32,555 bases of DNA from Ignavibacteriae bacterium HGW-Ignavibacteriae-2 (GTDB taxonomy: Bacteria; Bacteroidota; Ignavibacteria; Ignavibacteriales; Melioribacteraceae), in the NCBI GenBank assembly GCA_002839805.1, contig PGYT01000054.1:1-32555 (forward strand), read 5' to 3'. Both the position numbers and the translations under genes were made by a program. The notes below the pieces were generated by a model, which saw only the letters and a program-made list of their open reading frames with translations, did not search any database and was not told the DNA's origin. This document shows positions 5,651-22,829 of the stretch, piece by piece (positions within the stretch are counted from its first letter, which is position 1; each line of letters begins with the position of its first letter).

Positions 5651-7381
5651 TTAACTGATCTCCAACTTTTTCATTTTTCGCCAAAGAGTAGAGGGATTAA
5701 TATTTAATTCAGTTGCTGTTTTAGTGCGGTTCCAATTGTTCTTCTGGAGAATTGAAATTATTAATTCTTTTTCAGCTTGTTTAAAACCTTTTTTATGGTC
5801 GACGATATTATTTTTAGCGCTCTTGTTCTTGTATTCACGCAATCTTTTTGGAAGACATTCAACTTGAATTACTTCTCCACTGCATAAAACAAAACAGTGT
5901 TCTATTACATTTTCTAATTCTCGTATGTTGCCCGTCCAGGAGTATTCCATCAGAAGTTCATAAGAAGCGGAAGAAAACCGTTTGATTTTCTTATTAAATT
6001 TATTGTTAAAACTATCTATAAAATGATTTACAAGAAGGGGGAGGTCATCCATTCTTTCCCTGAGAGGAGGTAAATTAATATTTATTACATTTATTCTATA
6101 AAATAAATCCTCTCTAAATCTTCCGGCGGATATTTCCTCGGAGAGATTTTTATTAGTTGCGGCAATTATTCTCGTGGACATTTTGATTGATTTATTTCCG
6201 CCAACTCTCTCAAATTCTCGTGTTTCTAAAACCCTTAAAAGTTTGGTTTGAACTGCAGTAGAGAGATCACCGATTTCATCAAGAAACAATGTTCCGCCCT
6301 GGGCAAGTTCAAACCTACCGATTTTTGTTTTTACAGCACCTGTAAAAGCTCCTTTTTCATGCCCGAATAGTTCACTTTCGATAAGAGATTCTACAAATGC
6401 GCTGCAATTTACGGCAATAAACGGACCTGTTTTTCTCGAACTATTCAGATGAATTGCGCGCGCGGCCAATTCTTTTCCAGTACCGCTTTCACCTGTAATT
6501 AATACGGAACTATCAGTTTGCGATACGCTTTCGAGTACGGAAATTATTTGTTTAATTTCTTTATTTCTACCGACAATATTTTCGTATTTAAAAAACTTTT
6601 TTAAATGAGCTGATAAATTCCTTATCTCAGATATATCGATAAATGTTTCAACAGCGCCAATGTTTTCATTTTTATTATTAAGCAGTATTCCGGAATTTAC
6701 ACGAATAGGAATATTTCTCCCATCTTTATTTAATATTTCCAACTCGTTGCCAATCATCGATTTGCCTTTTAGAATTGTTTGTTCCATGTGGCATCCATTT
6801 CGGCAAAGTGATGAATTAAAAATATTCCAGCATTTTTTGCCTATCGCCTCCGATTTTTTATACCCGGTTATTTTTTCTGCGGATGTATTGAAAGAGGTTA
6901 CAGTCCAGTCGTTATCGATTGTAAAAGTTCCTTCTATGTTACTGTTAAAAATTGCGTCAAGTCTGTTTTTCTGATCTATTAGTTCTGAAGTTCTAAGTTC
7001 TAGTTCATCGGCTAAAGATAACATTTCCATTGTATCACGGAATACGAATACTACACTTAAAACTGAATCATTTTTACTAATTGGAGTTATTGAAGCGAGT
7101 ACATTTTTCTTATTTCCTTTTTTATTCGTGATATTTATCGCGAGATTGGTAAATGTGCGTTTGTTGTTAATCGAATCTGAAATATACTTTAGATCAGCAG
7201 GAGATTCTCGGAAAAGAATTTTACAATCAACTCCAATGATGTCATCTTCTTTATAACCGCTGATTCTTGAAGCGGCTTCATTAAATACAATAACATTCAT
7301 ATCTTTACTAATCACTGCAATTCCGTCAGGAATTACTACTACTTCCTTGTTTTTATCTATTATTCGTTTTACTTCTTTCAT
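5651..7381 (-). CDS. Sigma-54-dependent transcriptional activator, PAS-PAS-AAA-Fis
   Basis: A 576-residue enhancer-binding protein. Two PAS domains (about 8-125 and 140-255) are joined to a sigma-54 AAA+ domain with Walker A GESGTGKE (297-304), the sigma-54 contact motif GAFTGA (344-349) and Walker [10 protein letters not shown], then a C-terminal Fis-type helix-turn-helix ([19 protein letters not shown], about 547-565). The second PAS domain contains three clustered cysteines (C184, C193, C197) and the first has C53; such cysteines could hold an Fe-S cluster, metal or redox switch. The gene is divergent from the large operon beginning at 7580, and the intergenic region holds palindromes and a sigma-54-like promoter. 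In sulfate reducers the ORP operon has an adjacent sigma-54 activator in the same position, so this is the probable regulator of the neighbouring operon. Confidence 0.93.
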
Positions 7382-19095: not shown

Positions 19096-19803
19096 TTACT
19101 TCTTCAGAATAGTGTCTAAAACTTTTTCTTCACTTATTTCTTTGGTACAGAAGAACCAATCATAACATTTCATTTCTTCTTTGCCTTCCATTCTATCTTT
19201 AGCCGTTCCACATGAACCTGCCGGAGGAACGATTACAGGATCGCCCGGTCTCCAATCAGCTGGAGTTGCAACATTAAAAGCATCAGCGGTCTGAAGAGCT
19301 AATAATACTCTGTACAATTCATCAAAATTTCTTCCCAGACTTAGAGGGTAATAAATAACCGTCCTTATAATACCTTTCGGATCAATAACGAATACCGCTC
19401 TAACAGCTTTTGTGTTGCTTTCGCCGGGTTGAATCATACCGTATTTTTTAGCTACTTCCATTGTAATATCTTCAATCAAAGGGAAATTCACTTCAACATT
19501 TTTCATGCCTTTGTATTCTATTTTTTCTTTGATTGTTCTCAACCATGCAATGTGACTGTATAATCCGTCTACAGATAATCCTACAAGTTTACAGTTAGCT
19601 TGTGCAAATTGATCTTCCATAGTCGCAAAAGTCATAAATTCTGATGTACATACAGGCGTAAAATCGGCCGGATGACTAAATAGTATAACCCAGCTTCCCT
19701 TATAATCGGCTGGAAAATTTATGTCGCCTTGTGTTGTAACGGCCTTAAATTCAGGTGCCGCTTCGCCAATTCTTGGTAGGGATATTTGATTAGTTTCTTC
19801 CAT
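19096..19803 (-). CDS. Peroxiredoxin, Prx6-like long form
   Basis: A 235-residue thiol peroxidase. The peroxidatic cysteine is C52 in HPADFTPVCTSEF. The C-terminal extension carries C198 and the pair C213/C219 (KCYDWFFC), the same spacing as the additional cysteines of archaeal peroxiredoxins such as the Aeropyrum enzyme. It reduces hydrogen peroxide and organic peroxides. ATG start with GGAG upstream. It lies 60 bases after dps on the same strand and probably shares its sigma-54 promoter. Together they form an oxidative-stress pair: Dps removes iron and peroxide, and the peroxiredoxin removes peroxide. Confidence 0.95.
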   Translation of the reverse strand: MEETNQISLPRIGEAAPEFKAVTTQGDINFPADYKGSWVILFSHPADFTPVCTSEFMTFATMEDQFAQANCKLVGLSVDGLYSHIAWLRTIKEKIEYKGMKNVEVNFPLIEDITMEVAKKYGMIQPGESNTKAVRAVFVIDPKGIIRTVIYYPLSLGRNFDELYRVLLALQTADAFNVATPADWRPGDPVIVPPAGSCGTAKDRMEGKEEMKCYDWFFCTKEISEEKVLDTILKK

Positions 19804-19863: not shown

Positions 19864-20364
19864 TTATTTCTCAAGAATTGACCGAAGCATCCAAACGGTC
19901 TTCTGATATTTTTCGGACAATCCGTAAAACATTCCAGCCGATATCTCGTCATTTAAATTATTTTGCATTTTATATGCGGCAGCTTTTAATTTATCGGTTA
20001 CAACTGTAAAATCGATTATAATTTTTTGAATCATCTCTGAATAGTTTGGATACTTACCGGGTTCTTCATTTAATGTGGAAATATCCAAAAACTCTTTCAT
20101 AGTGCCGGGTGTTTTGAAGCCAAGCACTCTGATCCTTTCGGCTACATTATCAATATCATCAGCGAGTCCGTTGTAAATATTTTCAAAGGCGGCATGTAAA
20201 CCGAAAAAATGCGGACCAGTTACATTCCAGTGATAGTTTCTTGCCTTTGTATATAAAACAAATTGATCGGCTAATACTTCCTTCATAAGTTCCGATATTT
20301 CGAAAGTTACCTCATTTAATACTGAATTATTCGCTGTAGCTTGTGATTTCGTTTCGTTCAACAT
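19864..20364 (-). CDS. dps: Dps-family ferritin-like DNA-protecting protein
   Basis: A 166-residue four-helix-bundle protein of the Dps family. The inter-subunit ferroxidase residues are in place: H45 in RNYHWNVTGPHF, H57 and E61 in GLHAAFENI, and D72/E76 in DDIDNVAERI. Dps forms 12-subunit shells that oxidise and store iron, consume peroxide and, in many species, bind DNA. The first 15 residues are polar and likely disordered. The ATG has AAGGAG upstream. The gene is divergent from a GAF-type sigma-54 activator, and a near-consensus sigma-54 promoter lies 39 bases before its start. It leads an operon with the peroxiredoxin gene. Confidence 0.96.
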   Translation of the reverse strand: MLNETKSQATANNSVLNEVTFEISELMKEVLADQFVLYTKARNYHWNVTGPHFFGLHAAFENIYNGLADDIDNVAERIRVLGFKTPGTMKEFLDISTLNEEPGKYPNYSEMIQKIIIDFTVVTDKLKAAAYKMQNNLNDEISAGMFYGLSEKYQKTVWMLRSILEK

Positions 20365-20402
20365 TATTAATCTCCTTAAATTTTCATTCTTTGTGTATGT
20401 TA

Positions 20403-20419
20403 TGCAACGATCATGCCGA
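20403..20419 (-). promoter_or_regulatory. Sigma-54 promoter of the dps-peroxiredoxin operon
   Basis: On the minus strand the bases read TCGGCATG-ATCG-TTGCA, compared with the consensus TTGGCACG-N4-TTGCW. The invariant GG and GC are both present at the exact spacing, with two mismatches. It sits 39 bases upstream of the dps ATG, and the adjacent divergent gene encodes a sigma-54 activator. Confidence 0.8.
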
Positions 20420-20491
20420 TTTATAAGCTAAACTTAAGTTGTTGTATTTATTGGAGTTAAAGATATTATAAATTATAAGCTTGATAATAAG

Positions 20492-20505
20492 AACGATATA
20501 TCGTT
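20492..20505. promoter_or_regulatory. Perfect palindrome, candidate enhancer site
   Basis: AACGATATATCGTT is a perfect 14-base palindrome about 73 bases upstream of the -24 element of the dps promoter and 46 bases before the activator gene. Enhancer-binding proteins of the sigma-54 class act from such positions. Binding by the neighbouring GAF-type activator is inferred. Confidence 0.5.
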
Positions 20506-20513
20506 ATCTTTGT

Positions 20514-20547
20514 AACTAAATATCGGTGTGAACTAAATATCGGTGTG
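20514..20547 (+). repeat. 17-bp tandem direct repeat at the activator start
   Basis: AACTAAATATCGGTGTG occurs twice in immediate succession (20514-20530 and 20531-20547). The second copy reaches to within four bases of the ATG at 20551 and contains the alternative GTG start at 20545. It may be a recent duplication or a pair of protein-binding sites. Confidence 0.85.
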
Positions 20548-20550
20548 ATA

Positions 20551-22050
20551 ATGACTCCAACGGAATTAAATCAAAGAGATTACATATTTCTTTCGCCTCA
20601 TAAAACAATGGGGATTGTCCTCGACGCTATAAATGAAATTGTACCATACGAACTTGCGGTGATATTAAGTAAAGAACCCGACAATAATTTAAAGGTTCGA
20701 TATGCCCGCGGTCCGCTTGTTTCGGAAAAAATAAACGAATACAGAATATCCCTTAGCTCGCATCCGGATATTGAGGAAGTGCTAAAACTCGGGGAAGTTA
20801 AACTTGTTGAAGAAACTTACAATGAAGGTCACCACGATACATACGAAGGTATAATAGATCTTCCTACAGGACATTCTTGCATGCTCGCGCCGTTAAGGAT
20901 CAATGGAGAAACATTAGGTTTAATGACTCTCGATCACCGGCAATGCGATATATTTACTCCGCAAAGGGTTAATATAACAAATTCACTATCAAAGCTGATT
21001 GCTCTGGCACTGGCTCAATCTATTGCCAACGATTCGCTTATGAATGAAAAAGAAACCTTAATTTACGAACGTACCTCTTTAATAGGGGATATAGTTTCTG
21101 TTGTTGAAGGACTTGTTGGGAAATCTCATGTATGGAAACAAGTAATTGAAAAAATAAAACTTGTGGCTCCAACGGAATCGCACGTTATGATATTAGGAGA
21201 AACTGGAACAGGAAAAGAACAGGCCGCAAAAGCGATTCATACATTGTCTAAAAGATCATCGAAACCTTTCATAACTCTTAATTGTTCGGCGCTTAACTAT
21301 AACCTTGCGGAAAGCGAATTATTCGGGCACGAGATAGGCGCGTTTACAGGGGCGGTTTCGGCCAGGAGGGGCAGGTTCGAACTTGCTGACGGCGGCATAT
21401 TATTTCTTGATGAAATAGGCGATCTTCCGTTTGATATACAACCAAAACTTTTGCGTGCAATACAGGAGGGGACTTTTGAACGGCTCGGCAGTGAAAAAAC
21501 AATTCAGTCAAATGTAAGAATTGTATGCGCTACTAATGTTGATCTGGAAGAAAAAGTTAAATCAGGAAAATTCAGGGAAGATCTATTTTACAGATTAAAT
21601 GTCTTTCCTATTGTTTTGCCTCCGCTTCGTGCCAGAAGAGATGATATTTATCTTCTATCAAATTATTTTCTCGAAAAACTGTCTGAAAAATTTAGTGATA
21701 AGAAACTGATGTTATCCAGTGAAGCGGTAAAACTTTTGAGAGATAATTTTTGGCACGGTAATGTCCGCGAACTCCAGAATACTCTCGAAAGAGCTGTTAT
21801 ATTAAGCACTGATGGATTAATTAAACCGGTTCATTTAATATTCGAAAAGGATCATAAATCCGAAAACGATTGTGAGGAGAATAACTCTGCAGTTAATTCT
21901 TTTGATGAAGAAACGAAGAAGATAATTAATAAAGCACTTAAACTTACGGACGGAAAAATTTACGGAAAAGATGGCGCCGCGGAAATGCTTAAAATAAAAC
22001 CCACAACATTACAAAGTAAAATGAAAAAATTAAAAATAACTTTTCCCTAG
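20551..22050 (+). CDS. Sigma-54-dependent activator, GAF-AAA-Fis (NorR-like)
   Basis: A protein of about 499 residues. The N-terminal 165 residues form a GAF domain (with TGHSCMLAPLRINGETLGLMTLD and Cys 110 and 132), followed by the sigma-54 AAA+ domain: Walker A GETGTGKE (216-223), GAFTGA (263-268) and Walker [10 protein letters not shown]. It ends with a short Fis-like helix-turn-helix (GKDGAAEMLKIKPTTLQSKMKKL). GAF domains of NorR-type activators sense small ligands such as nitric oxide; the ligand here is unknown. The gene is divergent from dps-peroxiredoxin, whose promoter is sigma-54 type, so it likely controls oxidative or iron stress genes. The ATG is preferred, although a GTG six bases earlier is open. 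Confidence 0.92.
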   Translation: MTPTELNQRDYIFLSPHKTMGIVLDAINEIVPYELAVILSKEPDNNLKVRYARGPLVSEKINEYRISLSSHPDIEEVLKLGEVKLVEETYNEGHHDTYEGIIDLPTGHSCMLAPLRINGETLGLMTLDHRQCDIFTPQRVNITNSLSKLIALALAQSIANDSLMNEKETLIYERTSLIGDIVSVVEGLVGKSHVWKQVIEKIKLVAPTESHVMILGETGTGKEQAAKAIHTLSKRSSKPFITLNCSALNYNLAESELFGHEIGAFTGAVSARRGRFELADGGILFLDEIGDLPFDIQPKLLRAIQEGTFERLGSEKTIQSNVRIVCATNVDLEEKVKSGKFREDLFYRLNVFPIVLPPLRARRDDIYLLSNYFLEKLSEKFSDKKLMLSSEAVKLLRDNFWHGNVRELQNTLERAVILSTDGLIKPVHLIFEKDHKSENDCEENNSAVNSFDEETKKIINKALKLTDGKIYGKDGAAEMLKIKPTTLQSKMKKLKITFP

Positions 22051-22144: not shown

Positions 22145-22164
22145 TTTCGACAATCTAGTCGAAA
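22145..22164. promoter_or_regulatory. Inverted repeat upstream of the DUF2202 gene
   Basis: TTTCGAC, six bases, GTCGAAA: a perfect 7-bp inverted repeat about 48 bases before a sigma-54-like element. It could be an activator site. It is too short and lacks a T tract to be a good terminator for the activator gene. Confidence 0.4.
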
Positions 22165-22211
22165 GTTGGATTAAATATCCCCAAATCGAGTCTTTAATAA
22201 GGATTTCCGCG

Positions 22212-22230
22212 TTGGCATAACATTTGGCAT
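22212..22230 (+). promoter_or_regulatory. Sigma-54-like promoter element before the DUF2202 gene (candidate)
   Basis: The 19 bases contain a perfect -24 half (TTGGCAT). The -12 half reads TTTGGCA, where the expected GC is present only if the spacing is one base longer than standard. It lies 34 bases upstream of the ATG at 22264 and follows a sigma-54 activator gene. Confidence 0.4.
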
Positions 22231-22263
22231 ATCCTTTACAGTACAAAATAAAGGAGAATTAAA

Positions 22264-22829
22264 ATGAAAAATATAAAAATGTTATTTGTAATAGTTTTGC
22301 TTACAAGTTTTGGTATAAGTTCATGTGCGGAAAATAATTCGACTGAACCTATTGAAAACCAAGAGATTATTTCAGATTTAACAAAGGATACAATTTTTAA
22401 TATGCCAGTTGAAGAAATTTCTGAAAATGAAAGCGAAAGTATGATCTTTATGAGAGAAGAAGAAAAATTAGCAAGAGATGTTTATATAAATCTTTATGAA
22501 AGGTATGGAATTAAAGTTTTTAACAATATCAGCAAAAGCGAGCAAACTCATATGGATGCGATTAAATATTTGCTAGAAAAATATTCGATCGATGATCCTG
22601 TAGAAACCGATGTTAAAGGTGTTTTTAAAAATCAGGAATTGCAGATCTTATATAATCAATTAATAGAGCAGGGGAAGATAACGTAGATATAGAACTAGTT
22701 TACAACAATTTATTAAAAGGTTCTGAAAATCATTTAAGAGCGTTTGTCAAAAATCTTTCCGCCAGAGGAATTAATTATGAACCTCAGTTACTGGATATTG
22801 ACACCTTTAATTCTATACTCAATAAATAA
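22264..22829 (+). pseudogene. DUF2202 ferritin-like lipoprotein, broken by internal deletion
   Basis: The first frame (to the stop at 22686) has a lipoprotein signal (hydrophobic segment 6-19, lipobox ISSC, C21) and the DUF2202 first half: MREEEKLARDVYINLYE and SEQTHMDAIKYLLEKY, which hold iron-ligand-like Glu and His. Just before the stop, a different frame takes over with the family's end: EDNVDIELVYNNLLKGS, then ENHLRAFVKNLSARGINYE to TAA at 22829. Compared with family members, about 25-30 residues containing the second metal-ligand helix (ALKVGA.IEE.DI pattern) are missing between the halves. So roughly 75-90 bases were lost with a frame change. ATG with AAAGGAG. It is likely inactive as a di-iron protein, or an assembly artefact. 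Confidence 0.8.

Follow-up and report, generated by a model that had tools for sequence, protein, structure and literature searches.

A candidate sigma-54 stress switch with a sister of NorR beside dps in Ignavibacteria

In textbook accounts, peroxide defence belongs to OxyR, PerR and sigma-S. OxyR and PerR work with sigma-70-type polymerase, and the dps, ahpC and kat genes under their control are the same kind of targets as those described below. FhlA and HyfR are known as GAF-containing sigma-54 activators, and the described system most like the present one is NorR-norVW of E. coli, in which a GAF-AAA+-HTH activator is encoded divergently from its sigma-54 target with three boxes between the two. 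The spacings of these boxes are 24 and 21 bp; about 87 bp separate the nearest one from the predicted start, and 12 bp separate the last one from norR. The three sites of NorR are reportedly the subject of Tucker et al. 2010. According to one article, NorR depends on all three, which serve as a scaffold for its oligomer (PMC2941729); another describes a related NorR-type system, NorR2 and hcp, in Vibrionales (PMC1274295). In Proteobacteria, according to a 2025 survey, peroxiredoxin COG0450 belongs to a cluster in which predicted sigma-54 regulation is enriched (PMC12316311). Our own search by title or start of the abstract, with subscription journals mostly outside its reach, found no paper on sigma-54 control of dps or on a sigma-54 peroxide regulator.

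In this study, we analysed a dps operon and its divergently encoded activator in a 32,555-nucleotide stretch of Ignavibacteriae DNA (hereafter the window, meaning that whole stretch). The features of the locus are as follows; "passing loci" are those that pass the three-box spacing test described below.

19096–19803, minus strand: peroxiredoxin gene (AhpC/TSA with 1-cysPrx_C; Pfam PF00578 and PF10417; NCBIfam NF009668 above cut-off), operon gene 2, 60 bp past dps.
19864–20364, minus strand: dps, ferritin-like DNA protection protein, the first target gene (Pfam PF00210; NCBIfam Dps model with a score below its cut-off).
20418–20403, minus strand: predicted sigma-54 promoter (-24/-12), CGGCATGATCGTTGCA, with 9/11 consensus positions, exact spacing and counterparts at related loci.
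20481–20512, plus strand: predicted ordinary promoter of the activator gene, TTG-N21-TATCTTTG, overlapping box 1; TTG and TAnnTT are found here in 11/16 loci.
20492–20505, unstranded: predicted enhancer box 1, the palindrome AACGATATATCGTT, about 106 bp upstream of the predicted dps start and inside the spacer of the activator's predicted promoter.
20514–20527, unstranded: predicted enhancer box 2, AACTAAATATCGGT, 22 bp after box 1 (22–24 bp in the 16 passing loci).
20531–20544, unstranded: predicted enhancer box 3, AACTAAATATCGGT, 17 bp after box 2 (16–19 bp in the 16 passing loci) and 6 bp before the activator ATG.
20551–22050, plus strand: NorR-sister sigma-54 activator gene (GAF, AAA+ with GAFTGA, Fis-like HTH by eye), its start moved from GTG 20545.

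An earlier note on this DNA had described a near-perfect -24/-12 element ahead of dps, a 14-base perfect palindrome at enhancer distance and a divergent GAF-type sigma-54 activator. The first is a fair description, as the GG-N10-GC spacing of the element is exact and two of the 11 consensus positions differ; the palindrome is exact at the position listed; and the GAF domain, the AAA+ domain and the GAFTGA loop were all found. In the 186-bp segment concerned, a -24/-12 score as high or higher on the same strand arose in 0.8% of 5000 dinucleotide shuffles, and element and palindrome arose jointly in 0.04%. Counting from the promoter places the predicted dps start at about 20392, roughly 28 bases ahead of the dps ATG at 20364, with an AGGAGA between the two, and rpoN has one match in the genome. 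Downstream of the palindrome, boxes 2 and 3 form a 17-bp direct repeat. All three boxes are 14 bp long and follow the consensus AACkAwATwTCGkT, drawn from 48 boxes, of which 48 have C3 and 47 have G12.

An ortholog search of 58 genomes, this one included, gave at least eight further full-length activator orthologues among the matches listed (58–81% identical), the remaining listed matches reaching no more than 54% identity and for the most part covering the AAA+ part alone; a truncated copy is also present in G031. The window and the eight orthologues agree throughout (9/9) in having a divergent dps, three boxes at spacings of 22–24 and 16–18 bp, and a sigma-54-like site of 7–11 out of 11 between boxes and dps. 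The same 58 genomes contain 24 Dps matches, ten adjoining the activator and 14 elsewhere (one of these, L083, being a doubtful Dps at E 4.7e-4). Boxes are found at all ten dps genes beside the activator; two or more are found at none of the 14 others, one of which has a single 12-of-14 match. Sigma-54-like scores of at least 8/11 occur in this linkage scan at 7/10 dps genes beside the activator versus 3/14 others, so that the promoter score alone discriminates poorly. Conservation in relatives, which the earlier note had named as a check, is borne out in that promoter-like site, boxes and activator occur together. Its proposal that the divergent GAF activator exerts sigma-54 control over dps (and the peroxiredoxin gene) from the palindrome is likewise supported by comparison, that is, through conservation. 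The proposal is incomplete, not wrong, as the system takes in three boxes, a sister of NorR as regulator, other peroxide-defence genes, and relatives in Desulfosarcina and Myxococcota.

The wider comparison used 20 loci with readable upstream DNA, namely 17 loci together with L088, L089 and L091 from a scan of the genome_contigs collection. These three came to notice through their boxes and were kept for their GAF H-S-C and second-Cys signature, which a scan of 90 other loci, one that may have missed some carriers, found only in the same three, in repeats of counted loci (the repeats being L086, L087, L166–L168, L170, L171, L173, L174, L177 and L178) and in G130. G031 was counted although the contig ends within its activator (68% over 115 residues). 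G267 (L181) and G384 (L183), which run off their contigs, were left out, as was L109 from Desulfobacterales, which has two box-like matches, no dps or peroxiredoxin match, and an activator match that begins only at residue 111 and lacks the signature. L088, with its activator split between two frames, is absent from both the 17-sequence alignment and the tree; L091 is in the tree and absent from that alignment.

The divergent operon encodes peroxide defence at all 20 loci, with dps in 16 (once behind ahpC), peroxiredoxin or AhpC alone in three and katG in one. Where dps is the first divergent gene (15/20), it is followed by a peroxiredoxin gene in nine loci, by a catalase gene in one (G003) and, within the stretch seen, by neither in five. 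G130 has ahpC and then dps, and G167 has a DUF454 gene and then a PF00141 peroxidase resembling KatG (L176; PF00141 by Pfam, KatG by eye, the gene being cut by the locus end). The divergent gene is a peroxiredoxin gene in Desulfosarcina and an AhpC-type peroxiredoxin gene in both Myxococcota. At two of the 20 loci, L091 and L182, the AhpC gene was assigned from tblastn and sequence, not from Pfam. Within the stretches seen, norVW, hmp, hcp and norB occur in none of the 20 divergent operons. The peroxiredoxins behind dps are of two kinds: those of the window and G013 are 87% identical, and those of the other loci compared (L005, L004, L007 and L008) are about 45–47% identical to that of the window, which suggests an exchange of the operon's second gene.

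The three-box spacing test is passed by 16/20 loci and by 0 of 4800 shuffles of those 16, a result that is partly circular because the box consensus was derived from the same loci. Four loci fail. Both Myxococcota, L089 and L091, carry three boxes with the order of the two spacings swapped (19/23 and 17/22); two boxes are found in L179, and the five matches in L182 are scattered. In L180 (G376), a further box match near the activator start accompanies the tested three and perhaps belongs to a second set. The best sigma-54 site placed in the gap matches at least 9/11 positions in 15/20 loci and 7–8 in G003, G008, G013, G299 and G167. From box 1 to the predicted start is 84–107 bp in the 14 passing loci with the chosen site in the gap; L003 and L176, whose better-placed sites score 7, fall outside this count. 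In L008 (G012), two sigma-54-like sites of 9 and 7 of 11 overlap in tandem, 13 bp apart, between boxes and dps. Promoter-like site, boxes, activator and peroxide-defence target are shown by comparison to form one conserved unit.

The activator itself has an AAA+ domain (PF00158, 233.8 bits) with Walker A GETGTGKE and the GAFTGA loop; its C-terminus gave no HTH_8 match at E 0.001 and has a conserved helical end carrying PTTLQSKMKKL or a near variant. The box test is passed by 15 Ignavibacteria loci, the window among them. In 14 of these an ATG opens the activator 4–10 bp past box 3; in the remaining one, G376, the activator starts further on, past a further box. The placement of the ATG after box 3 in these 14 loci makes ATG 20551, and not GTG 20545, the likely start in the window. 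Directly after box 1, TAnnTT is found in 13/16 loci (11% under a mononucleotide-shuffle null), and in 11/16 a TTG lies 19–23 bp upstream of it with box 1 filling the spacer (null 2.2%), a pattern at the activator gene that we take to resemble the TTG/TAnnTTTG promoter of Bacteroidota. The arrangement suggests that the activator may repress its own gene from box 1 in its promoter spacer; we treat this as a lead, since the promoter pattern was sought after the alignment had been viewed.

With respect to spread, the activator is found at E 1e-130 or better in 18 of 391 genomes of the class. Among 395 genomes of the phylum, seven matches exceed 800 bits, all of them in this class, and the other eight are at about 400 bits. 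Relatives were found in Desulfosarcina cetonica (53% identical over the best segment) and in two Myxococcota (39–40%) in the genome_contigs collection, by a scan with short peptide patterns that kept the best 80 of 589 confirmed and is no census. Plasmids gave no match at E 1e-100.

Relationship to known regulators was assessed with family models and a tree. The best NCBIfam models are NorR (NF003451, 371.9 bits against a cut-off of 476) and NifA (369.3 against 528.85), both scores lying below the cut-off. In a tree of 38 rows, a single group (98/91) holds the 18 activators whose targets are peroxide-defence genes; it joins E. coli NorR and Enterovibrio NorR2 (99/96) as their sister and not from inside, NorR being represented by these two rows only. 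Some other rows of the tree are long-branched, and letter make-up deviates in seven rows, including both Myxococcota and E. coli NorR.

The GAF domain carries a set of five residues, D96, H108, C110, D128 and C132, that is invariant in the 17 aligned activators. In NorR numbering, D96, H111, C113 and D131 are kept in 17/17, and H129 (window numbering) is gained relative to NorR in 13/15. The second Cys (C132 in the window, four residues after NorR D131) is present in 17/17 and absent from both NorR rows; both Myxococcota have it. The NorR study names R75, Y98, D99, H111 and C113 as residues whose change disrupts the iron centre (PMC2941729). In 15 rows, H111 and C113 are kept in all 15, Y98 in 14, D99 in four and R75 in none, and the full set is found in no row. 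A structural model of the GAF domain (mean pLDDT 82, pTM 0.80; 63–70 in the blocks covering 81–110) pairs strands 109–117 and 120–128 as a hairpin in which H108 and C110 open one strand and D128 ends its partner. From strand register only, this should bring H108 and C110 next to D128 and H129 and close to C132, and it is plausible that the His/Cys/Asp set of the model forms a metal or thiol site. A PDB sequence search with the GAF domain returned no match, Foldseek matched the GAF model best to varied GAF domains, led by a cAMP-bound one at 14% identity, and the best 50 rows of the full-length fold search were sigma-54 activator AAA+ structures.

The activator need not be the sole peroxide regulator in its hosts, as Fur-family proteins are present in 15/17 of the activator genomes searched and OxyR homologues in 5/17. 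The Fur-family proteins may include a PerR. At E 1e-20, an OxyR homologue is absent from 12/17 of these genomes, some of them drafts, the present one included. On contig C19 of G031 (L221, L084), a second, distant dps without boxes stands about 120 bp from a divergent OxyR homologue, so that this genome has two dps genes, each beside a different kind of regulator. A wider regulon was considered and rejected. Over nine genomes, the strict box motif matches 23 times when both strands are counted for palindromes; 18 of these matches lie at the dps locus, and G005 has none. The five outside the locus are not above the 11 of a reversed control; three of them fall within long reading frames, L048 falls outside such a frame and L055 is ambiguous.

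Sigma-54 seems to be heavily used in this genome, since the activator has at least 25 matches in it, mostly to the AAA+ part. The window also encodes a second sigma-54 activator, of PAS type (5651–7381, minus strand; best NCBIfam model PrdR, below cut-off). Just after the activator gene lies a DUF2202 lipoprotein gene (22145–22686, plus strand) with sigma-54-like sites at 22213–22228 and 22225–22240 and an inverted repeat, TTTCGAC-N6-GTCGAAA, at 22145–22164 that differs from the dps boxes; the reading frame of the gene seems broken near 22686. An ORF of 216 aa that by eye looks similar occupies the same place in G013 (L034) and has a sigma-54-like site matching 10 of 11 positions.

As a whole, we read the locus as a self-contained local sigma-54 stress switch for the dps operon, a reading to which we assign, from the sequence comparisons, a probability of roughly three in four. 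The activator would sit and assemble on the three boxes between its own gene and dps, and once bound it may hold down its own promoter, whose spacer contains box 1. The signal would be peroxide or the oxidative state of the D96/H108/C110/D128/C132 site, which could hold a non-haem iron, like that of NorR, or be a Cys pair. Peroxide is the likeliest signal, at about even odds and judged from the targets, with NO as its main rival. The fuller proposal is held tentatively, at somewhat less than an even chance: it states that this clade, the sister of NorR, detects peroxide directly by means of a GAF site rebuilt from the five invariant residues, substitutes for OxyR or PerR, and in Ignavibacteria acts from a three-box enhancer on Dps, peroxiredoxin/AhpC and catalase or KatG, relatives being present in Myxococcota and Desulfosarcina.

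The H-x-C and two Asp held in common with NorR could mean NO sensing. The switch would then be the same, with a NorR-type iron site, which in NorR itself brings about activation by NO as a mononitrosyl iron, calling up Dps and peroxiredoxin to deal with peroxynitrite and with iron that NO has released. Peroxiredoxins also reduce peroxynitrite, and the sister relationship to NorR, the four residues kept in 17/17 together with Y98 in 14/15, and the NorR kind of three-box layout all speak for an NO sensor. We nevertheless regard it as unlikely, because R75 (0/15) and D99 (4/15), at which substitutions disrupt the NorR iron centre according to that study (PMC2941729), are mostly gone, the second Cys is invariant, and the divergent operons, as far as seen, include a catalase and a KatG-type peroxidase and in 0/20 cases norVW, hmp, hcp or norB.

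A second rival keeps the same switch and lets it respond to oxygen, to free iron or to some small ligand held by the GAF pocket, with Dps serving for iron storage. GAF domains bind many ligands, and the cAMP-bound domain at the head of the Foldseek matches agrees with such a role; the invariant His/Cys/Asp set, which resembles a metal or thiol site, and the partner genes for peroxidases and a catalase make it distinctly improbable. It is hardly credible that the -24/-12 match and the palindrome are chance features of AT-rich DNA and that an ordinary promoter drives dps. The palindrome alone is weak, as an equally long one occurs in 4.5% of shuffles and the window has another four perfect palindromes that are 14 bp or longer; yet orthologues whose activators are only 58–81% identical retain the promoter-like site, the boxes and the spacing. 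A chance palindrome was rejected because it is kept in register in relatives, and this conservation is why palindrome and promoter are taken as real.

The best reading of the window system is a NorR-type module that would have been re-wired for peroxide defence. In both systems the last box stands just before the regulator ATG, and the box spacing of 24/21 bp in E. coli compares with 22–24/16–19 bp in 16 loci here. The two differ in their targets, which are NO enzymes for NorR and Dps, peroxidases and catalase for the activator described here. They differ too in the site core, which for NorR is GT-(N7)-AC (PMC1274295), a core that the consensus AACkAwATwTCGkT does not contain. A true NorR was rejected as the identity of the activator because the model cut-off, two of the five iron-centre residues, the site core and the targets all speak against it. 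An FhlA- or HyfR-like activator was rejected on the tree, in which both E. coli proteins fall outside the group formed by NorR and the peroxide-defence activators. In contrast to the OxyR and PerR systems, this locus has a sigma-54-like promoter and an AAA+ activator, and a dedicated sigma-54 circuit should be silent in the off state and strong in the on state, because ATP-driven activation is needed. Sister regulators of one layout, one with NO enzymes and the other with peroxide enzymes as targets, that differ in a handful of sensor residues amount to a natural experiment, which brings the choice of a GAF domain between NO and peroxide within reach of a test.
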